From the NCBI RefSeq assembly GCF_022179465.1, contig NZ_BPQV01000006.1, positions 286,044 through 350,043 of the forward strand: 64,000 bases of DNA. Reading direction: 5' to 3'. Made by a program: the position numbers and the translations under genes. The notes under the pieces were generated by a model, which was not told the origin of the DNA, ran no database searches, and saw only the letters and a list, made by a program, of their open reading frames with translations. This document shows, piece by piece, positions 51,485 to 60,553 of this stretch (the first letter of the stretch is position 1; each line of letters starts with the position of its first letter). This DNA is from Methylobacterium organophilum. GTDB taxonomy: Bacteria; Pseudomonadota; Alphaproteobacteria; Rhizobiales; Beijerinckiaceae.

Positions 51485-54400
51485 ATGACGAAGAAATTTA
51501 TTTCGCTTTTGCTCGCATCGACGGGTATGATTCCGATCGGTGCCCTCGCACAACAGGTGCCGACTGCGCCCGGCATCGGGTTCGCGAACAGCACCTCGGT
51601 CAATCCGGGAACCGTGATCCCGCGCCTCCTCGACGCCTATGTCGGGCTGATGGCCGGCAATCCTGCGGTCCTGACGCAGAACTATCAGACCGTCATTGCC
51701 ATGACCCAGGGCCGGACGGCGGATCAGACGCTGGCCGCGATCCATGACGACCGGACCGGCCAAGCCTACAGCATCCTGAACGGGCTCGGGCCGCTGACCT
51801 CCGCCTATCTCACCGGGGCAGGCGCCAGCTTCACCGGCACGAAGCCGAACGCCCTGACCCCGACGACCTACGCGACGACCAAGCTTTCGGATTACGCCGC
51901 CAACCTCAACGCCGGCTCCGACGCCAATGGCGGGAGCACGACCTTCGGCAACGGCAGCGCCACCCCTCTCGCTGCGGCGGTCGCCTTTATCGACAACACG
52001 GTCCGGGCCAACGCCTCCACCGAGCCTTCGAAGCGCGTCTTCGGGCGCTACCAGGGCGCCAACCCGGCGATCGATCCCCTGGATTCCCGCTTCAACACCT
52101 ACAACGCCGCGACGAACAGGCGGGGCCTGTCGGCCGCCGACACGGCCGGCATGGTCGTGCCGGGCTATCTGTCGAACTTCACGGTGCCGGCGGTCTACGG
52201 GACGACGGAACGCTGGGTGAAGGGCTTCACCGTCACCCAGGCGATGATCGACGCCAATGGCGGGCGTCCGCTCACGGCGCCCAATGTCGGGTCCTACGAT
52301 TCGACCGGCGCCTTCACGCCCACGACCTTCGGCGTCGGCGACTACGTCCCGGGCATCGGCACCTCCCCGCGCCCGTTCCGGGTCTCGACCAGCGTGGCCG
52401 TGCCGACGCTGCTGAACCCCCGGGTCAACGGCACCAACGCCTACGCGGATGGCGGCTTCCCGAGCGGCCACACCAATTCCGGCTATCTCCAGGCCCTGGG
52501 CGTCGGCTTCCTCGTGCCGCAGCGCTGGCAGGAGATGCTGACGCGGGCCTCCGAGCTCGGCAACAACCGCATCCTGGCCGGCATGCACTCGCCCCTCGAC
52601 GTGATGGGCGGCCGGATGCAGGCGACGGCCATCGCCGCCACCAACATCTATGCCGCGCTCTACGACGACCAGGGCAACCGGGTCGACTGGACGAACCCCG
52701 CCAACACCAAGGCCTATGCCGTCTACCAGGCCTACCAGCAGACCCAGGCCTATCTGGCGGCGAGCTGTGGCGCGGTGAGCGTCAATGCCTGCCTCGCCAA
52801 TGCCGCGGCCTCCGGTGCCGCCGATGCCTTCGGCGATGCCGCCCGGAACAAGGCCGATTACACCGCGCGCCTGACCTACGGCTTCCAGCCCGTCGGCCCG
52901 AGCGCGCCGATGACCGCGGCGGAGGTGCCGGTCCAGGCGCCGGTGCTGCTGCTGACCCGCTTCCCCTACCTGACCGACGCGCAGCGCCGGGAGGTGCTGG
53001 CGACGACGGGGCTGCCCTCGGGCTACCCGCTCCTGAGCGGCAACACCTATGACGGCTGGGGCCGGCTCAACCTCTACGCGGCCATGGACGGCTACGGCGC
53101 CTTCAACGGCACGGTCACCGTCACGATGGATGCGGCCCAGGGCGGCTACAGCGCCCTCGACACCTGGAAGAACGACATTTCCGGCAGCGGCGGCCTGACC
53201 AAGGCCGGCAGCGGCACGCTGATCCTGACCGGCCGGAACAGCTATGCCGGCGGCACCGCCGTGGCGGGCGGCACCCTGGTCGGCTCGGCAACGAGCTTCG
53301 GCTCCGGCGCCATCGTCGACAATGCCAGCCTGATCCTCGACCAGGCCGGCGACGCCGCCATGGCCAACCCGATCTCCGGCACGGGCAGCCTGACCAAGAT
53401 CGGGGCCGGCACGCTCAGCCTCACCGGCACGAGCACCTTCACCGGCGCGACCGGCGTGGCCCAGGGCCGTCTGGCGGTGAATGGCAGCCTCGCCGGCTCC
53501 CTCGTCACCGTCGGCTCCGGGGCCAGCCTCGGCGGCACCGGCACGGTCGGCGGCGTGGTCGCGACCTCCGGCGCCACCGTGGCCCCGGGCAATTCCATCG
53601 GCACCCTGAACGTCGCCGGCGCCGTGACCTTCGCGGCCGGTTCCGTCTACGGCGTCGAGGCCAACGCCTCCGGCCAGTCGGACCGGATCGCCGCCACCGG
53701 CAGCGCCACCCTCAACGGCGGCACCGTCCAGGTCACGGCGGCCGGCGGCACCTACGATCCGCGCACCCGCTATACCATCCTCACGGCGGCCGGCGGCGTG
53801 ACGGGGCAGTTCGCGAACGTCACCGCGAATCTCGCCTTCCTCTATCCGACGCTGACCTATTCGGCGGATGCGGTCGCCCTGAACCTGACGCGCAACGACA
53901 TCGCCTTCTCGACCATCGCCCAGAACCGGAACCAGGCCGGGGTGGCGGATGCGATCCAGGCCGGCGGCCCGAACACCGCCCCGTTCCAGCGCACCGTCGG
54001 CCTCACGGCCTCCGAGGCGCAGGCAGCCTTCCAGGCGCTCTCGGGCGACGTGCATGGCAGCACCGTCTCGACCTCCTACGCCACCGCCTTCTTCGTGCGC
54101 GAGGCCATCCTCGACCGCCTGCGCTGGGGCGCCACCCCCGGCACCGCCGAGGGCCTGAACTACGGCAGCCTGCCGGCGACCTACACCGCCGACCTGCCCG
54201 GTCGGGCGGCGCCGGTCGTCGCGATGCCCGCCCGCCTCCTCGACCCGCGGGTCTTCGGCCTCTGGGGCCAGGGCTTCGGCAGCTTCGGAACGGCGCGCTC
54301 GGACGGCAACGCGGCGGGCTTCGACCGCCAGATCTCGGGCTTCGCCCTCGGCGCCGATGTCAGGCTGGAGAACGGGATCAAGCTCGGCGTGGTCGGCGGC

Positions 54401-55132
54401 TACACCACCGCCAGCCTCGACACGACGGGCCGGCTGCAATCCGGCACGATCGAGGGCGCCTATGGCGGCGTCTATGGTGGCTACGAGGTCGGGCCGGTCT
54501 CGCTGCGGCTCGGCGCGACCTATGCCGATGACGGCATCCGCACCCGCCGCACCGTCGCGGTGGCGGGTCTCTCGGACTCGGCCAGCGCCCGCGCGGGCGG
54601 GGCGACGATCCAGGGCTTCGGCGAGATCGGCTACCGCTTCTTCCTCGGCGCGGAGGGGCCGGCGCCGCTCCTGTCGAAGGACGGCCCGGTGCCGGTCCAG
54701 GCCGGCGCCAGCTACATCGAGCCGTTCGTGGGCGGCTCCTATGTCGCGATCGGCCGCGACCGCTTCGTCGAGACCGGGGGCGTGGCGGCGCTGACGGGCT
54801 TTGCCCGCGACTACGACGTGGGCGCGGTCACCGCCGGCTTGCGCGGGCAGACCGCGCTCGGGTTCGAGGCCGGGGCGCCGCTCTCGGCCCACGGGCTGGT
54901 GGGCTACCGCCGCGCCTTCGGCGACGTGGTGCCGGCGGCCCTGCTGTCCTTCGGCAACGGCCCGACCTTCCTGAGCGCCGGCATCCCGATCGCCCGGGAC
55001 GCCCTCGTGGCCGAGGCCGGTCTCGACCTGCGGGTGGCGCCGAACGCGACCCTCGGCGTGGCCTATACCGGCCAGGTCGGCGACCGGATCCAGGACCATG
55101 CGGTGAAGGGCAATTTCACCTGGCAGTTCTGA
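51485..55132 (+). CDS. PAP2-type acid phosphatase autotransporter
   Basis: A 1215-residue type V secreted protein. Signal peptide about 1-22 (ALAQQ). The passenger contains a PAP2/vanadium-haloperoxidase-type phosphatase: PSGHT at 326-330 with H329, and R362-x5-H368-x3-D372 (NNRILAGMHSPLD). Together with the TSPRPF segment these give the three family motifs. Residues about 560-760 are autotransporter-associated beta-helix repeats (GSGGLTKAGSGTLILTGRNSYAGGT). The C-terminal barrel (about 930-1215) ends FTWQF. It would expose a phosphomonoesterase on the cell surface to release phosphate from organic esters. It is monocistronic, ending at a strong hairpin. Confidence 0.93.
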   Translation: MTKKFISLLLASTGMIPIGALAQQVPTAPGIGFANSTSVNPGTVIPRLLDAYVGLMAGNPAVLTQNYQTVIAMTQGRTADQTLAAIHDDRTGQAYSILNGLGPLTSAYLTGAGASFTGTKPNALTPTTYATTKLSDYAANLNAGSDANGGSTTFGNGSATPLAAAVAFIDNTVRANASTEPSKRVFGRYQGANPAIDPLDSRFNTYNAATNRRGLSAADTAGMVVPGYLSNFTVPAVYGTTERWVKGFTVTQAMIDANGGRPLTAPNVGSYDSTGAFTPTTFGVGDYVPGIGTSPRPFRVSTSVAVPTLLNPRVNGTNAYADGGFPSGHTNSGYLQALGVGFLVPQRWQEMLTRASELGNNRILAGMHSPLDVMGGRMQATAIAATNIYAALYDDQGNRVDWTNPANTKAYAVYQAYQQTQAYLAASCGAVSVNACLANAAASGAADAFGDAARNKADYTARLTYGFQPVGPSAPMTAAEVPVQAPVLLLTRFPYLTDAQRREVLATTGLPSGYPLLSGNTYDGWGRLNLYAAMDGYGAFNGTVTVTMDAAQGGYSALDTWKNDISGSGGLTKAGSGTLILTGRNSYAGGTAVAGGTLVGSATSFGSGAIVDNASLILDQAGDAAMANPISGTGSLTKIGAGTLSLTGTSTFTGATGVAQGRLAVNGSLAGSLVTVGSGASLGGTGTVGGVVATSGATVAPGNSIGTLNVAGAVTFAAGSVYGVEANASGQSDRIAATGSATLNGGTVQVTAAGGTYDPRTRYTILTAAGGVTGQFANVTANLAFLYPTLTYSADAVALNLTRNDIAFSTIAQNRNQAGVADAIQAGGPNTAPFQRTVGLTASEAQAAFQALSGDVHGSTVSTSYATAFFVREAILDRLRWGATPGTAEGLNYGSLPATYTADLPGRAAPVVAMPARLLDPRVFGLWGQGFGSFGTARSDGNAAGFDRQISGFALGADVRLENGIKLGVVGGYTTASLDTTGRLQSGTIEGAYGGVYGGYEVGPVSLRLGATYADDGIRTRRTVAVAGLSDSASARAGGATIQGFGEIGYRFFLGAEGPAPLLSKDGPVPVQAGASYIEPFVGGSYVAIGRDRFVETGGVAALTGFARDYDVGAVTAGLRGQTALGFEAGAPLSAHGLVGYRRAFGDVVPAALLSFGNGPTFLSAGIPIARDALVAEAGLDLRVAPNATLGVAYTGQVGDRIQDHAVKGNFTWQF

Positions 55133-55252: not shown

Positions 55253-55921
55253 TCAGCCCGAGGCGGCGCGGATGGCCTCGCCGAGGGCTTCGGCCGTCGC
55301 CGCCCCGTCATGGCGGGTGTCGTTCACGTAGAATGTCGGCGTCGCATGGACGCCGAGCACCGAGGCCGCCCGCGTCTGGACGAGGGTCACCGCCTCGTAG
55401 AGGGCCTGGTCGTTTAGGGTCGCCTCGAAGCGCTCCCGGCTGAATCCGGCCTGGCGCATCAGGTCGCGAAGCGCGTCGAGGGGCTCGGGCACGAATGCCC
55501 AGAGGGCCTGCTTCTCGAAAAGCAGGTCGGTGATCGCGTAGTAGTGGCGGTCGTCGCCCGCCCGGGCGAGCATGAAGCCGGCCGTGTCGAGCGGGCTCAG
55601 GGCGAAGCCGCGCAGGGCGAAGCGCAGCTGCCCGGTATCGACCCAGCGCGCCTTGAGGGCCGGCCAGGTCCGCGCGTGAAATGCCGCGCAATGCGTGCAG
55701 GTCACCGCGGCGTAGGCGATCAGCATGACCTTCGCCGGCGGCGCGCCGATCCAGACATCGCCGAGCGGACCGGCGAGGGCGGCGTCGCCGACGGAGGGGG
55801 CGGGCGCCGTCCGGGACCCTGTCACCGCGGCCAGGCCGAGGGGCGCGAGCCCGACGGCCGCGGCGGCGAGCGCGGCGCGGCGGGTGATCCGGGGCGGTGT
55901 CGATCGTGGGACGGGGGCCAT
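55253..55921 (-). CDS. DsbA-family thiol oxidoreductase, Tat-type signal
   Basis: A 222-residue periplasmic thioredoxin-fold protein. The twin-arginine signal (PRITRRAALAAAAVGLAPLGLAA) is followed by the active site CTHC (AYAAVTCTHCAAFHARTW), helical insertion, and the cis-Pro loop HATPTFYVND. The CxxC variant C-T-H-C is close to DsbA (CPHC), so it oxidises or isomerises protein thiols. It lies 6 bases after a small exported-protein gene and shares its promoter. The direct-repeat array at 56222-56257 is likely to control both. Confidence 0.88.
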   Translation of the reverse strand: MAPVPRSTPPRITRRAALAAAAVGLAPLGLAAVTGSRTAPAPSVGDAALAGPLGDVWIGAPPAKVMLIAYAAVTCTHCAAFHARTWPALKARWVDTGQLRFALRGFALSPLDTAGFMLARAGDDRHYYAITDLLFEKQALWAFVPEPLDALRDLMRQAGFSRERFEATLNDQALYEAVTLVQTRAASVLGVHATPTFYVNDTRHDGAATAEALGEAIRAASG

Positions 55922-55927
55922 CCGACG

Positions 55928-56140
55928 CTAGGCTCCGCGGGTGGGGGGCGCCGGGGCGAGGCGTCCGTGCCGGTCGCCGCGAGAGGCCGCGACCCCGGGA
56001 GGGGCCTGCCCCGTGGCCGCGTGCATGGCCCGCGGGGCCGCCCTGGCGCCGCCACCGTGGCCCGTCATCGACGCGAGCACGCCCATGGCGAGGGCCGTCG
56101 CGACCTGCCAGAGCGGCGATGAGAGGTTGGATGACGCCAT
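55928..56140 (-). CDS. Small exported or membrane protein, hypothetical
   Basis: A 70-residue protein: a hydrophobic helix at about 9-26 (LWQVATALAMGVLASMTG) followed by a Gly/His/Arg/Pro-rich tail (HGGGARAAPRAMHAATG). The ATG at 56140 has a strong GGAGGA site (56149-56154) eight bases upstream, which argues for a real gene. It directly precedes the DsbA-like gene and follows the response-regulator direct-repeat array by about 80 bases. No family is recognised. The tail may be periplasmic. Confidence 0.55.
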   Translation of the reverse strand: MASSNLSSPLWQVATALAMGVLASMTGHGGGARAAPRAMHAATGQAPPGVAASRGDRHGRLAPAPPTRGA

Positions 56141-56221: not shown

Positions 56222-56257
56222 GTGACCGGGCGTGAAGCCCGTGTAACGTTTTGTGAC
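56222..56257 (-). promoter_or_regulatory. Four-part direct-repeat array, probable response-regulator site A
   Basis: On the minus strand: GTCAC-AAAAC-GTTAC, then TTCAC and GTCAC, at 0, +10, +21 and +31. Pentamers on one helical face are typical for OmpR-family dimers in tandem. The array lies between the small-protein/dsbA operon and the response regulator gene, 51 bases before the latter. The same array with the same spacing occurs at 59803-59838. Confidence 0.65.
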
Positions 56258-56307
56258 AGCGGCCGCTTTCGCGTTGCCGGCGCGCGCGGGCCTCCTATGG
56301 TCGGTTC

Positions 56308-57039
56308 ATGCACGACGGCACCACCATCGCCATCGTCGAGGACGATCCCGACATCCGTTCGCTGCTAGCGGGCTTTCTGGAGGGCGAGGGGTTCCGCGTC
56401 GTGGGCTTCGACGGCGGCGCGAGCCTCGACCGGAGGCTCGCGGCGGGGCCGGTGCCGGACCTGATCGTGCTCGACTGGATGCTGCCCGGCGAGGACGGCC
56501 TCTCGATCTGCCGCCGCCTGCGCGAGGCGGGCGGCCCGCCGATCATCATGCTGACGGCCAAGGACGAGGATATCGACCGGGTGCTCGGCCTGGAGATGGG
56601 GGCCGACGACTACGTCTCGAAGCCCTTCAACCCCCGCGTGCTGCTCGCCCGCATCCGCGCGGTCTTGCGCCGCTCCCTCGTGAACAGCGCGCCGGCCTCC
56701 GAGGCCGAGCCCGAGCGGCTCGGCGTCGCCGATCTCGTCGTCGATCTCGCGGCGCGCCGGGTCACGAAGGGCGAGGCCGCCGAAGAGATCCTCCTCACGA
56801 GTGCGGAATACGACCTCCTGCATTGTTTCGTCACCCGCCCGCAGCGCGTGCTCTCGCGCGACCAGCTGCTCGACTGGACGCGCGGCCGGACCGCCGACGC
56901 CTTCGACCGCACCATCGACGTGCAGGTGAGCCGGCTGCGGCACAAGCTCGGCGCCGCCGGCAGCGGCGCGGCGGCCCTGCTCAAGACCGTGCGCAACGCC
57001 GGCTACATCCTGGCCGCCCCGGTGAAGCCCGCGCCATGA
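56308..57039 (+). CDS. OmpR-family response regulator
   Basis: A 243-residue regulator: receiver with acidic residues E11-D12-D13, D56 (LIVLDWMLPGEDG), Thr (IIMLTAKDED) and Lys (DYVSKPF), then a winged-helix domain (LLTSAEYDLLHCFVTRPQRVLSRDQLLDWTRGRTADAFDRTIDVQVSRLRHKL). The TRGR and RTIDVQ wording is that of the OmpR branch proper. It heads an operon with its kinase (ATGA overlap) and probably binds the direct-repeat arrays found before its own locus and before the gene at 59947. Confidence 0.93.
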   Translation: MHDGTTIAIVEDDPDIRSLLAGFLEGEGFRVVGFDGGASLDRRLAAGPVPDLIVLDWMLPGEDGLSICRRLREAGGPPIIMLTAKDEDIDRVLGLEMGADDYVSKPFNPRVLLARIRAVLRRSLVNSAPASEAEPERLGVADLVVDLAARRVTKGEAAEEILLTSAEYDLLHCFVTRPQRVLSRDQLLDWTRGRTADAFDRTIDVQVSRLRHKLGAAGSGAAALLKTVRNAGYILAAPVKPAP

Positions 57040-58412
57040 TGGCGCGGATCGGCCTGCTCGGCCGGATCATGCTGCTCCTGCTCGGGGCGCTCTCGCTGCT
57101 CGTGCTCGTCACGGTCACGATCGATCGCTGGCAGATCGCGCACCGGCCCTTCCCCTGGGACAGCGGCTTCCCGCGCGTCGATCAGGCCGCGCATATCATG
57201 ACCCTCCTGCGGGACACGGACCCCTCCCTGCGGCCGGCCATCCTGAGGGCGGTGAGCGGCGAGGCCTTGCGGGCCGAGATCGCCGACCAGCCCCCGCCGG
57301 AGGCCGCGCTGATCCGCGAGCCGCGCCTCGAGGCGCGGCTGCGGCGGCTGACGGGGGACACGGACGGCCGGATCGCGGCCTTCACCAGCAGCGCCCTGCT
57401 GCGCCGGGGCGTGGATGCGGCGGATGTCGGGGACCAGGACCGGCGCCGGCCGATCGGCAGCCTGTCGCTGGCGACCTACCGGCTCGCCGATGGCCGGATC
57501 CTCGTCATCTCCGCCATCGTCCGCCACCGCTCGCTCATGCCCTGGTTGCTCGGGCTGCCCGTGAGCCTCTGGGTGGCGATCCTGGGCGTGGCGGTGGCCG
57601 GTCTCGTCCTGGTCGGGGCGCGCCACGAACTCACGCCCCTGCGTCGCCTGACCGAAGCCGTGTCCCGGTTCGACGGCCGCGTGCCGGAGCCGGCCATCCC
57701 GCCCCAGGGCGCCCCGGAGATCCGGCATCTCGCCCGGGCCGTGCAGGCGATGCAGGAACGCATCGTCGGCCTGATGGCCGAGCGCTCGCTCCTGATCGGC
57801 GCCATCTCCCACGACCTCAAGACCTACCTGACGCGCCTGCGTCTGCGGGCCGAGGGCGTGTCGGAGCCGGAGCGGCGGGAGCGGCTGGTCGAGGACCTCG
57901 ATGCGATGACGGCCCTGATCGACACCTCCCTCGGCTTCGCCCGGGGCACCGCCATCGGCGTGGAACGCTCGGCGGTCGATCTCGCCGACCTGGTCGCGGT
58001 GGAGGTCGCCGAGCAGGCGGCGCAGGGAATCGCGATCCGGCTGATCGGCGAGGACGTGCAGGATGCGGTGACCGTGGGGGACGCGGTCGCCCTGCGGCGC
58101 GTCCTCGCCAACCTGATCGAGAACGCCGTCAAGTTCCGCCGCTCCACCGTCGCCGTCACCGTGCGCCGCACCGGCGCGGTCTGCGCCGTCGTCGTCGAGG
58201 ATGACGGGCCGGGCATTCCGGAGGCGGAGCGGCGGGCGGTGTTCAGCCCCTTCTATCGGGTCGAGCGCTCCCGGAGCCGGACGACCGGCGGCACCGGCCT
58301 CGGCCTCGCCATCGCGCGGCAGATCGCGGAGGCCCATGGCGGCACTGTCGCCGCCGAGGCCGGCGCCCTCGGCGGCGCGCGGCTCGTGCTCACCCTGCCC
58401 GCGCTCGCCTGA
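57036..58412 (+). CDS. Sensor histidine kinase (EnvZ-like)
   Basis: A 458-residue membrane kinase: TM1 at about 6-28, a periplasmic domain of about 130 residues, TM2 at about 172-192 (LWVAILGVAVAGLVLVGA), HAMP, H259 in the GAISHDLKTYLTRLRLRAE box (EnvZ-like HDLRTPLT changed to HDLKTYLT), N box NLIENAVKF, EDDGPGIPE, TGGTGLGLAIARQIAEAHGG. It overlaps the regulator gene by four bases. The EnvZ/OmpR-like pair suggests envelope or osmotic sensing; the sensed signal is not visible. Confidence 0.93.
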   Translation: MMARIGLLGRIMLLLLGALSLLVLVTVTIDRWQIAHRPFPWDSGFPRVDQAAHIMTLLRDTDPSLRPAILRAVSGEALRAEIADQPPPEAALIREPRLEARLRRLTGDTDGRIAAFTSSALLRRGVDAADVGDQDRRRPIGSLSLATYRLADGRILVISAIVRHRSLMPWLLGLPVSLWVAILGVAVAGLVLVGARHELTPLRRLTEAVSRFDGRVPEPAIPPQGAPEIRHLARAVQAMQERIVGLMAERSLLIGAISHDLKTYLTRLRLRAEGVSEPERRERLVEDLDAMTALIDTSLGFARGTAIGVERSAVDLADLVAVEVAEQAAQGIAIRLIGEDVQDAVTVGDAVALRRVLANLIENAVKFRRSTVAVTVRRTGAVCAVVVEDDGPGIPEAERRAVFSPFYRVERSRSRTTGGTGLGLAIARQIAEAHGGTVAAEAGALGGARLVLTLPALA

Positions 58413-58556
58413 GGCCGCCCTCGCCTCCCGCACCGACCGGGAAGCCGGATCCAGGTCGAGAGGATAGGGTTCGAGGCTCGACCCCGCGACCGTCCGCGGT
58501 TATCATTCTATGTTAATACGGCCATGCGAGGCTTGAGGCTCGCTGAAGGTCGTCTC

Positions 58557-59756
58557 ATGTCGCTGTTCCGTATCGTCGGTGCCGTGCTCGCGCTGGTCAG
58601 TCTCCTGCCCGCCGCCCTGGCGCAACCGGCGGAACCGACCTCCGTGGGATCCGGCGTCACCTATCAGTTCCTGGCACGCTGGGACGCCGACAGGCTCAAC
58701 CATATCCTGACGACGGACATCCCGGCCTTTTCCGGCATTCCGGTGAGCTACAGTCCGGCGCGCAACGCCGTGAAGCTCTACCGGGTGACGTATCCCTCGG
58801 TCGTGCCCGAGCGCGGCAACAAGAGGATCGTGGCGACAGGTCTGATCGCCGTGCCGGATACCGCCGAAACCGCCTTCCCGATGGTCTCGTATCAACACGG
58901 AACGGTCTACGGGAAGGAGCAGGTTCCCTCCTTTCCCGAGCAGTCGCCCGAGACGCAGCTCATGATCGCGCAATTCGCCGGTCAGGGTTATCTCCTGATC
59001 GGCGCCGACTACTTCGGTATGGGCTCGTCGACGGAGCCGGAGGGGTATCTCGTCAAGGGCAGCCACCAGCAGGCGACCTACGACATGCTGCTGGCCAGCC
59101 GCGCGGTGCTCGCCGACCTCAAGCTCTCGGACACCAAGCTGTTCCTGAGCGGCTGGTCGCAGGGCGGCTTCGTCACCCTCGCCATGCTCGAGAAGCTCGA
59201 AGCGAGCGGCCTGGCCGTCAAGGCCGCGACGACGGCCAGTGCCCCGGCGGATGCCGCCGCCGCCTTCCAAGGCTTCCTCGGCTTTCCTCGCAAGATCGAC
59301 GCGAGCTGGATCCCGACGATCTTCATCCTGACCGCCTTCTCCTACGAGAACTACTACGACGTGCCGGGCCTCGCGCAGAGCCTTCTCACCGAGGAGACCT
59401 ACGAGAACGCCCGCCGGGCTTATCTGCGCCTGCCCTTCGATCAGGCCGCCATTCCGACCAATCTGCACAAACTGATCCGACCCGAATATTTCAACCTGCA
59501 AGATTTCGCCAACTCTGCCTTCGGACGCCTTGTCGCGCAGACTCAGGCCTATCGCTGGGCCGTGAGGACGCCGGTGCGCACCTTCTACGGCCTGACGGAC
59601 GAGGCCATCCGGACCGAGATCGGTCGATTGCCGATGACCTGGCAGCAGGCCCTCGGCAATGACAAGATCGAAGCGGTATCGACCGGTGACACCACCCATC
59701 GCGGAACCTTCGCGAAGGCCGTCCCGCAGTGGAAGAGCTGGTTCGACGGGCTCTGA
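58557..59756 (+). CDS. Secreted alpha/beta hydrolase (lipase/esterase-like)
   Basis: A 399-residue exported hydrolase: signal peptide at about 1-22 (VLALVSLLPAALAQ), then an alpha/beta fold with the oxyanion-side QHGT, nucleophile elbow GWSQGG, a helical lid region (FSYENYYDVPGLAQ), a late Asp in YGLTDEA and His in GDTTHRGTF. It belongs with secretory lipases and tannase-like esterases by pattern. The ATG at 58557 has AAGG seven bases upstream; an earlier Met would add an 11-residue leader. It follows the kinase gene by 144 bases and is probably transcribed on its own. Confidence 0.8.
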   Translation: MSLFRIVGAVLALVSLLPAALAQPAEPTSVGSGVTYQFLARWDADRLNHILTTDIPAFSGIPVSYSPARNAVKLYRVTYPSVVPERGNKRIVATGLIAVPDTAETAFPMVSYQHGTVYGKEQVPSFPEQSPETQLMIAQFAGQGYLLIGADYFGMGSSTEPEGYLVKGSHQQATYDMLLASRAVLADLKLSDTKLFLSGWSQGGFVTLAMLEKLEASGLAVKAATTASAPADAAAAFQGFLGFPRKIDASWIPTIFILTAFSYENYYDVPGLAQSLLTEETYENARRAYLRLPFDQAAIPTNLHKLIRPEYFNLQDFANSAFGRLVAQTQAYRWAVRTPVRTFYGLTDEAIRTEIGRLPMTWQQALGNDKIEAVSTGDTTHRGTFAKAVPQWKSWFDGL

Positions 59757-59802
59757 ACAGCACGATCGCCGGCGCGCCGCCTCTCGGTACGCCCCAAGGC
59801 TC

Positions 59803-59838
59803 GTTACAAAACGTTACGCCTCGGCACGGGCCCGTCAC
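59803..59838 (+). promoter_or_regulatory. Direct-repeat array, probable response-regulator site B
   Basis: GTTAC-AAAAC-GTTAC, a degenerate GGCAC at +20 and GTCAC at +31, in the same layout as the array at 56222-56257 and oriented toward the gene at 59947, 108 bases downstream. It probably makes that small secreted protein a target of the adjacent OmpR-type regulator (inference). Confidence 0.62.
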
Positions 59839-59946
59839 ATCCGGGAAGAGGCCGAGGGCGAACCTTCGCTCACCCGTGGCGGCGTCCCTGCCGCCCGGGG
59901 CGGAGCCGGAAACCGGCTTGCCCATAGGAGCAGAAGGAATTCGTCG

Positions 59947-60213
59947 ATGGTGAAGGCCCTTGTCCCGGCCGCCCTCCTCGCCACCGTCCTCGCGGCCCCG
60001 GCCTCGGCCCTGCCGCTGGTCCAGGATGCCGTGTCCGCCGGAGGCGGTGAGGCGCGGATCATCCAGGTCTATGGCGGCTGCGGCCCCTACGCGCATCGCG
60101 GCCCCTATGGCGGCTGCCGGCCCGGCGGGCAGTGGGGCGGCTATGTCCGCGGCGTGTCCTGCCCGGCGGGCTTCCACATCGGTCCCTATGGCCGCCGCTG
60201 CTGGCCGAACTGA
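59947..60213 (+). CDS. Small secreted Gly/Cys-rich protein (GCG_CRPN type)
   Basis: An 88-residue exported protein: signal peptide (VPAALLATVLAAPASA), then a mature part with YGGCGPYAHRGPYGGC, GFHIGPYGRRCWPN. The GCG start and CRPN-like CWPN end are those of the small GCG_CRPN proteins common in Methylobacterium and relatives. Four cysteines would allow two disulphides, for which the DsbA-like protein encoded nearby is a candidate oxidant. Function is unknown; cell-surface or metal-related roles are possible. AAGGAA precedes the ATG. Confidence 0.8.
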   Translation: MVKALVPAALLATVLAAPASALPLVQDAVSAGGGEARIIQVYGGCGPYAHRGPYGGCRPGGQWGGYVRGVSCPAGFHIGPYGRRCWPN

Positions 60214-60259: not shown

Positions 60260-60553
60260 ATGATCCGCAAGCTCGCCCTGCCCTTCGCCCTCTCCCTGGG
60301 GCTTCTCGCCGCCGCCTCCGGCGCCGAGGCCCGGGACGGATGCGGCCCCGGCTTCCATCGCGGCTATTACGGTTGGTGCCGGCCGAATCTCGGCGTCCGC
60401 GCCTACGGCTACGGGCCGGTCTATCCCCGCTTCGGCTATCACCGCTGGCACTACGGCTATCGCTACCGCTGGCACCGCGGCTACGCTTGGCACCGCGGCG
60501 GTTACCGCCATGCCGGCTGGCACGGCGGGTGGGGCTGGCATCGCCGCTGGTAG
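60260..60553 (+). CDS. Small secreted Gly/Tyr/His/Trp-rich protein (GCG_CRPN type)
   Basis: A 97-residue exported protein: signal peptide (LALPFALSLGLLAAASGAEA), then DGCGPGFHRGYYGWCRPN, the exact GCG_CRPN prefix, then about 50 residues of low-complexity repeats of YG, RYRWHRGY, GWHGGWGWHRRW. The tail is very rich in His, Tyr and Trp, suited to metal or polymer binding in the envelope. AAGGAG at 60248-60253 gives a firm start. It lies 46 bases after the previous GCG_CRPN gene and is probably cotranscribed. Confidence 0.85.
   Translation: MIRKLALPFALSLGLLAAASGAEARDGCGPGFHRGYYGWCRPNLGVRAYGYGPVYPRFGYHRWHYGYRYRWHRGYAWHRGGYRHAGWHGGWGWHRRW

Follow-up and report, generated by a model that had tools for sequence, protein, structure and literature searches.

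The CpxRA envelope stress response is tied to periplasmic disulfide chemistry (DsbA). Here we consider a putative operator of another two-component system, a direct-repeat array GTYAC-N5-GTTAC-N16-GTCAC, which occurs twice around the genes of an OmpR-family response regulator and its kinase in a 64,000-nt stretch of the Methylobacterium organophilum genome (below, the window; RefSeq assembly GCF_022179465.1, contig NZ_BPQV01000006.1, positions 286,044 to 350,043). Judging by sequence comparisons, it is highly probable that this array serves as the operator for the OmpR/RstA-type regulator encoded next to it, which would control itself, small exported cysteine-containing proteins and a thiol oxidase.

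Several described systems resemble this one. The RstA box of enterobacteria, TACATNTNGTTACA, has TACA half-sites in tandem at a distance of one turn, and its second TACA is part of GTTACA (PMC4117788), and a half-site distance of 10 bp is consistent with other such regulators (PMC9275681). In Caulobacter, UzcRS has the motif CATTAC-N6-TTAA and the UzcR regulon is large, with 57 binding regions (reviewed in PMC8963506). The motif of alphaproteobacterial CenKR is TGA-N8-TGA, and this system is described as essential for R. sphaeroides and as conserved throughout the class (PMC9275681); one of its targets, srlA in S. meliloti, encodes a thioredoxin fold with a predicted signal sequence (PMC9561847).

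Two Arrays in the Window

Exact matches to the pattern are found at 56222-56257 on the minus strand (box A) and at 59803-59838 on the plus strand (box B), where a first-pass annotation of the window had placed them. Offsets 0/10/31 (pentamers p1, p2 and p4) are common to both boxes, in line with the equal spacing of the first, second and last pentamers reported there; the third pentamer (p3) is weak in both. The boxes face their presumed targets at 82 bp (box A, to the ATG at 56140) and 109 bp (box B, to the ATG at 59947), within the range of about 80-110 bases given earlier, and box A is 51 bp from the regulator's own ATG. Direct-repeat half-sites approximately 10 bp apart upstream of presumed targets, as observed here, are typical of the OmpR family, as had also been suggested. 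The elements and genes of the locus are:

55253..55921, minus strand: DsbA-like thioredoxin-fold protein (PF13462) with CTHC, cis-Pro TPT and, by eye, a Tat-like signal
55928..56140, minus strand: internally deleted remnant of the exported HExxH protein Y, a 70-aa open reading frame (ORF)
56222..56257, minus strand: box A, with p1 GTCAC at 56253-56257, p2 GTTAC at 56243-56247 and p4 GTCAC at 56222-56226
56232-56236, minus strand: weak p3 of box A, TTCAC, offset +21
56274..56301, plus strand: predicted regulator promoter TTGCCG-N16-TATGGT, ending 6 bp before the ATG
56308..57039, plus strand: OmpR-family response regulator (Response_reg and Trans_reg_C), predicted as the probable binder of both arrays
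57036..58412, plus strand: cognate membrane histidine kinase, EnvZ/RstB-like (HAMP, H259 in ISHDLK, HATPase)
59803..59838, plus strand: box B, with p1 GTTAC at 59803-59807, p2 GTTAC at 59813-59817 and p4 GTCAC at 59834-59838
59823-59827, plus strand: weak p3 of box B, GGCAC, offset +20
59839-59846, plus strand: ATCCGGGA, directly after p4 of box B
59947..60213, plus strand: GCG_CRPN protein 1 (NF047412), small, exported, with four cysteines, at the same position in relatives
60260..60553, plus strand: GCG_CRPN protein 2 (NF047412), small, exported, with two cysteines and a His/Tyr/Trp-rich tail

When the window was shuffled 100 times with its dinucleotides kept, two matches at 2 mismatches never arose, and in the 5.06-Mb genome boxes A and B are the only matches to the pattern with up to 2 mismatches.

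Distribution of the Regulator and the Array in Methylobacterium

Regulator orthologues (E up to 1e-90) are present in 42 out of 112 genomes of the genus, in 44 loci. The full array, allowing for one mismatch, is found in 41 genomes (40 of the 42 that carry the regulator, one of the 70 that lack it), and has 59 matches compared to one for the reversed control. The core 15-mer (p1 and p2 with their spacer, at most one mismatch) is found in 49 genomes, 40/42 with the regulator and 9/70 without, with 88 matches versus 16 for the reversed control; at box A, the two exceptions among genomes with the regulator (G065, G089) carry a version with two mismatches. The window shuffles and these genus-wide counts against the reversed control reject chance as the origin of the arrays, which are a functional signal. 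The array is conserved before orthologous genes, as the reading in the first-pass annotation requires: box A in 44/44 regulator loci and box B before 37 of the 40 in-locus GCG_CRPN-1 genes.

The usual order is box A, regulator, kinase, box B and GCG_CRPN genes, with a DsbA-like gene behind these in eight loci. The sole regulator-free genome with the full array, G093, carries a relict locus: part of the kinase is left (aligned over residues 86-457), as are box B, GCG_CRPN and dsbA, but there is no regulator orthologue. In the three relict loci, L078 (G012), L263 (G074) and L261 (G093), the regulator and/or the kinase are wholly or partly deleted, and boxes and targets persist.

The GTCACAAACCGTTAC boxes of five genomes (G020, G062, G072, G102, G133) form a separate recurrent site and were excluded as support, while still included in the 9/70 core count; in the two loci inspected, L079 (G020) and L270 (G133), the same unrelated gene lies downstream. 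No convincing target was seen for the boxes in G104, G125, G094, G082 and G111:C206.

Regulator and Kinase

The regulator matches PF00072 (93.9 bits) and PF00486 (73.6 bits) above the Pfam cut-offs, and D12, D13, D56, T83 and K105 are invariant in eight aligned sequences; with its receiver, winged helix and phospho-acceptor aspartate it belongs to the OmpR/PhoB family. In the NCBIfam ranking OmpR comes first for the regulator, and EnvZ first and RstB second for the kinase. All scores stay far below the equivalog cut-offs: 233.7 vs 331 (OmpR) and 174.6 vs 330 (RstA) for the regulator, 166.8 vs 415 (EnvZ) and 165.8 vs 478 (RstB) for the kinase. Among named relatives M. fujisawaense ranks best, with 86% identity in the regulator.

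Across the genus, the kinase gene follows the regulator gene in its 44 loci, being fragmented in the second locus of G118 and truncated by the contig end in G112. The kinase of the window is 90% identical to those of G135 and G085, and the regulator only 84% and 82%; recombination inside the operon is a possible cause of this gap.

Box A and the Promoter of the Regulator

All 44 regulator loci have the core of box A when up to 2 mismatches are allowed. Its p2 is constantly GTTAC (44/44), p1 alternates between GTC and GTT (GTYAC in 40/44), and p4 GTCAC is found in 12/44. The distance from box A to the regulator ATG is 51 bp in 38 loci, 52 in three and 53 in three, and directly downstream of the core a GTTG-spacer-TATNNT element adjoins the ATG in 44/44 loci. 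The regulator mRNA is probably leaderless, given the start of transcription suggested by this element. The fixed arrangement of box A, promoter and ATG is a mark of autoregulation; either activation or repression would fit, as the pentamers are directed away from the gene. The most conserved setting of box A is upstream of the regulator and not of dsbA: box A does precede dsbA in the window, as described in the first pass, but its primary place is at the promoter of the regulator itself.

The variable p4 follows the divergent gene. Eight loci have an intact divergent gene of the exported protein Y (218-265 aa; HEYMH motif by eye), and all eight have p4, compared to 4/36 other loci, the window being counted among the latter (Fisher p = 2.8e-6, ignoring kinship). 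Matches of Y to Pfam are all sub-threshold, and thus we assign it to no family beyond the HEYMH motif. In the window, residues 1-57 of the 70-aa ORF align (42-49%) with the exported Y (236-246 aa) encoded at the corresponding position in relatives; a weak similarity to Y residues ~189-201 is seen at the end of the ORF, so that the middle of Y has been lost. This alignment rejects the ORF as an intact gene; the "small exported protein" previously noted before the DsbA-like gene is a deleted remnant, followed in the window by dsbA at box A.

The regulator, the kinase, Y and the array with p4 are also carried by two plasmids, M. aquaticum pMaq22A_2p and M. extorquens pME152. These copies (L354, L355) are near transposases or mobilization genes. 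In the G012 relict the core box and Y are left, the regulator is cut down to its first 31 residues, and GTCAC is at +32 by eye.

Box B, GCG_CRPN Genes and the Putative Thiol Oxidase

Both GCG_CRPN proteins of the window pass the curated NF047412 cut-off of 24, with 36.6 and 44.1 bits. GCG_CRPN-1 has four cysteines in 49/52 matches, and protein 2 follows protein 1 in many, not all, relatives. The 37/40 count above was obtained with at most 2 mismatches and includes G112, where the locus is split over two contigs. Alignment of 40 box B sites (these 37, a moved copy in G117 which retains its box, and two relicts, in G093 and the second locus of G074) shows p1 GTYAC in 40, p2 GTYAC in 40 and p4 GTCAC in 39, most sites continuing into ATCCGGGA or a near variant. 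Off-locus GCG_CRPN-1-like copies, relict and moved ones apart, carry a box in 0/10 cases by script and 0/1 by eye, which speaks for the array as operator of the adjacent regulator; the tally covers 11 copies, with about 17 weaker matches outside it. The second GCG_CRPN copy of G002 was read by eye and not scored, owing to its strand.

A third GCG_CRPN target (72 aa, exported, four cysteines, 31.1 bits on NF047412) is preceded by the core box, at 116-134 bp, in G010, G026 and G132, and by a form with 3 mismatches in G111, which makes 4/7 homologues. An array-like box also precedes a DUF1835 gene in G120 and a similar-looking gene in G117. A paralogous two-component pair is divergent from a GCG_CRPN-2-like gene in L283 (G031), L284 (G001) and L261 (G093), with no GTTAC array seen there by eye; in L283 and L284 an EF-hand-like coding stretch (by eye) precedes the next GCG_CRPN-like gene.

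The DsbA-like protein has 104.5 bits on PF13462 (Thioredoxin_4), and its CXXC (CTHC) and cis-Pro (TPT) are conserved, which places it among DsbA-like proteins. In the tree it falls into a clade of 11 with 100/100 support, apart from housekeeping paralogues, and hence is not merely one of them. One of the 11 is the protein of the window, and eight, in relatives, are encoded behind box B and a GCG_CRPN gene; ten of the 11 tree members are at an array, and for nine of the ten the place is this locus or a relict of it. Another off-locus dsbA, in G115 (outside the tree), has an in-frame stop and a degraded array. Since clade members sit behind box B and that of the window at box A, dsbA accompanies the array in two different ways, and the simplest inference would be that in the window it left box B for box A. 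The proposed link of the thiol oxidase to the array is thereby borne out, and the gene most likely encodes a putative oxidase forming the disulfides of the GCG_CRPN proteins. The small regulon suggested for the two-component system, the oxidase and cysteine-bearing surface proteins gains from conservation of the array before orthologous genes, and loses the divergent small exported protein, a remnant in the window.

Two further genes of the region were noted. An exported alpha/beta hydrolase (58524-59756, plus strand) lies between the kinase gene and box B and has no match of at least 40 bits in the fetched regulator loci of relatives, and therefore looks like an insertion. An autotransporter (51485-55132, plus strand) has a passenger with a PAP2 domain and PATR repeats.

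Homologous Loci Outside the Genus

In an order-level sample of 397 genomes (E up to 1e-68), a regulator homologue is present in 50, 46 of them outside the genus; 46 of the 47 order-level loci were covered, leaving out that of G339 at a contig edge. We scored upstream regions with a pentamer matrix whose training set was restricted to Methylobacterium, taking p below 0.02 against shuffles as significant. Paired pentamers are significant in 33/46 regions outside the genus (31/46 in the first run), 28 of these 33 at 48-65 bp from the regulator start, compared to 2/15 genus paralogues and 6/79 distant named regulators. Box-like pairs also showed up at a few distant regulators in an unscored scan of 80 named loci. 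For the order-level homologues, 10 is the one spacing in the range 6-15 at which the pair score has a peak; of the offsets 16-39, +31 gives the best further pentamer, which is the geometry of the first-pass annotation. These upstream regions reject the array as a genus-only trait.

A divergent small exported protein is encoded at 40 of the 46 loci outside the genus and was not found at six, one of them cut by a contig end. By a crude pattern and hydropathy script, corrected by eye (L325 is SH3-like, not TGPxG, and L317 a Cys-rich repeat by Pfam), 31 are of the TGPxG/Cys-pair class, four Cys-rich-repeat, three EF-hand, one SH3-like with cysteines and one other. A search with one TGPxG/Cys-pair member gave no match in Pfam or NCBIfam at E up to 0.01. 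For example, a TGPxG-type hypothetical protein is divergent from the regulator on Rhizobium ruizarguesonis pRlX5, and an SH3 gene in Roseibium aggregatum; by eye, the array is weak in both.

The regulon suggested for Methylobacterium stands in the genus, but the system is wider, with other small exported proteins in other members of the order. We give even chances to an order-wide Hyphomicrobiales envelope response, in which one regulator and one modular four-part operator (offsets ~0/10/21/31) would serve targets exchanged between unrelated small exported, mostly cysteine-bearing families (TGPxG/Cys-pair, Cys-rich repeat, EF-hand, GCG_CRPN), occasionally together with a DsbA of their own. The core of this operator would serve the regulator, and its distal pentamer would come and go with the divergent target.

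Proposed Mechanism and Alternatives

In the proposed model, the membrane kinase would sense an envelope condition and phosphorylate the regulator, one dimer of which would bind p1-p2 (GTYAC-N5-GTTAC, one helical turn) and a second one p3-p4. On the core of box A the regulator would control its own leaderless promoter. Where p4 is present and the array faces a gene (box B, or box A with an exported gene), RNA polymerase would be recruited there, p4 adjoining the presumed -35 element of the target; p4 would be needed for the exported gene and dispensable for the promoter of the regulator. The output would be small exported cysteine-bearing GCG_CRPN proteins, together with the oxidase forming their disulfides. 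Multi-cysteine exported proteins with a DsbA of their own lead us to conjecture an envelope condition requiring oxidised small surface proteins, e.g., metal or peptide stress.

A number of observations weigh against this reading. Within the genome of the window, the reversed control likewise has two matches at 2 mismatches, so that the single-genome count is weak as proof, and the weight of the argument is therefore on the two arrays being exact, 3.6 kb apart and conserved; the genomes are related, hence the genus-wide counts are not independent events. Genomes G079 and G111 have the regulator with no full array and no GCG_CRPN-1 beside it. Box B is degraded in G082, G089 and the second locus of G101, a moved GCG_CRPN-1 of G065 lacks a box, as does the third GCG_CRPN gene in 3/7 homologues (G116, G127, G133), and no match to GCG_CRPN-1 or -2 was found in the fetched stretches of the two plasmid copies. 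Box A has p4 with no intact Y in four loci (the window, G014, G011, G024). One dsbA, in G123, stands alone behind an array variant (GTCAC at +21 and +31) in a genome without the regulator, and an off-locus dsbA in G120 has no array within 3 mismatches. Outside the genus, 13/46 upstream regions are below significance, and the mean score of the +31 pentamer is the best yet negative (-11.7, compared to -17.2 to -24.4).

The core could be only autoregulatory, with the GCG_CRPN genes and dsbA as passengers and box B a leftover of duplication, and such a view would agree with the box A core being the most conserved element (44/44) and with the regulator-kinase block on plasmids without GCG_CRPN matches. 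We consider it improbable, as box B keeps p1 and p2 in 40/40 and p4 in 39/40 sites, with a ATCCGGGA-like tail, and is retained in the moved copy of G117 and the relict of G093, whereas the examined unlinked GCG_CRPN-1 copies lack it; moreover, p4 of box A tracks the divergent gene, and a distant GCG_CRPN gene carries the core box. Slightly less probable still is binding of the arrays by another regulator, e.g., a paralogous OmpR-type protein or a global regulator similar to UzcR or CenR. The dsbA with the array variant in G123, where the paralogues have about 53% identity or less, and a core-like box before a GCG_CRPN-2-like gene in G075, which has no orthologue, would fit this, but the array follows the regulator gene (40/42 vs 1/70), promoters of the paralogues mostly show no signal (2/15), and the motifs of CenR (PMC9275681) and UzcR (PMC8963506) differ from it. 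That the 15-mer, with its self-complementary AACGTT, is a dyad operator of a different repressor class or a structural DNA element is very improbable, as the pentamers are direct and not inverted, p1 of box A varies between GTC and GTT with p2 fixed as GTTAC, p4 at +31 points the same way, and in distant homologues it is the spacing of 10 that stands out.

Comparison With Known Systems

Given control of the array by the adjacent regulator, several small exported families of no known role (GCG_CRPN, TGPxG/Cys-pair) gain a regulator, an operator and a target set, and their link to a thiol oxidase makes function testable in ordinary Methylobacterium strains and rhizobia. The natural series of operators, with the core kept, the distal half-site varying with the neighbour gene and the oxidase at either array, may be of use in studies of regulon evolution. 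The matches listed in the open-licence literature contain nothing on the regulator, the box or GCG_CRPN regulation, and no motif letters were found in the accessible part of PMC12864828; the regulon is apparently an undescribed member of a known regulatory kind.

The system resembles RstA/RstB in having an OmpR/PhoB-family regulator and tandem half-sites, and RstB is the second-best NCBIfam match of the kinase. It differs in scoring far below the equivalog cut-offs, in the letters between the half-sites, in the further conserved half-site at +31, and in its cysteine-bearing exported targets and DsbA. UzcRS is likewise an alphaproteobacterial two-component system, differing in motif and regulon size; the comparison with UzcR is one of motifs. 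With CenKR the system shares the envelope context, a direct repeat and a thioredoxin-fold target, while the motif is different, and the regulator is present in just 42/112 genomes and not throughout the genus, as a core regulator like CenR would be. In comparison with CpxRA, the targets here are small cysteine-bearing exported proteins encoded beside the operon, and the motif is unlike the Cpx box.

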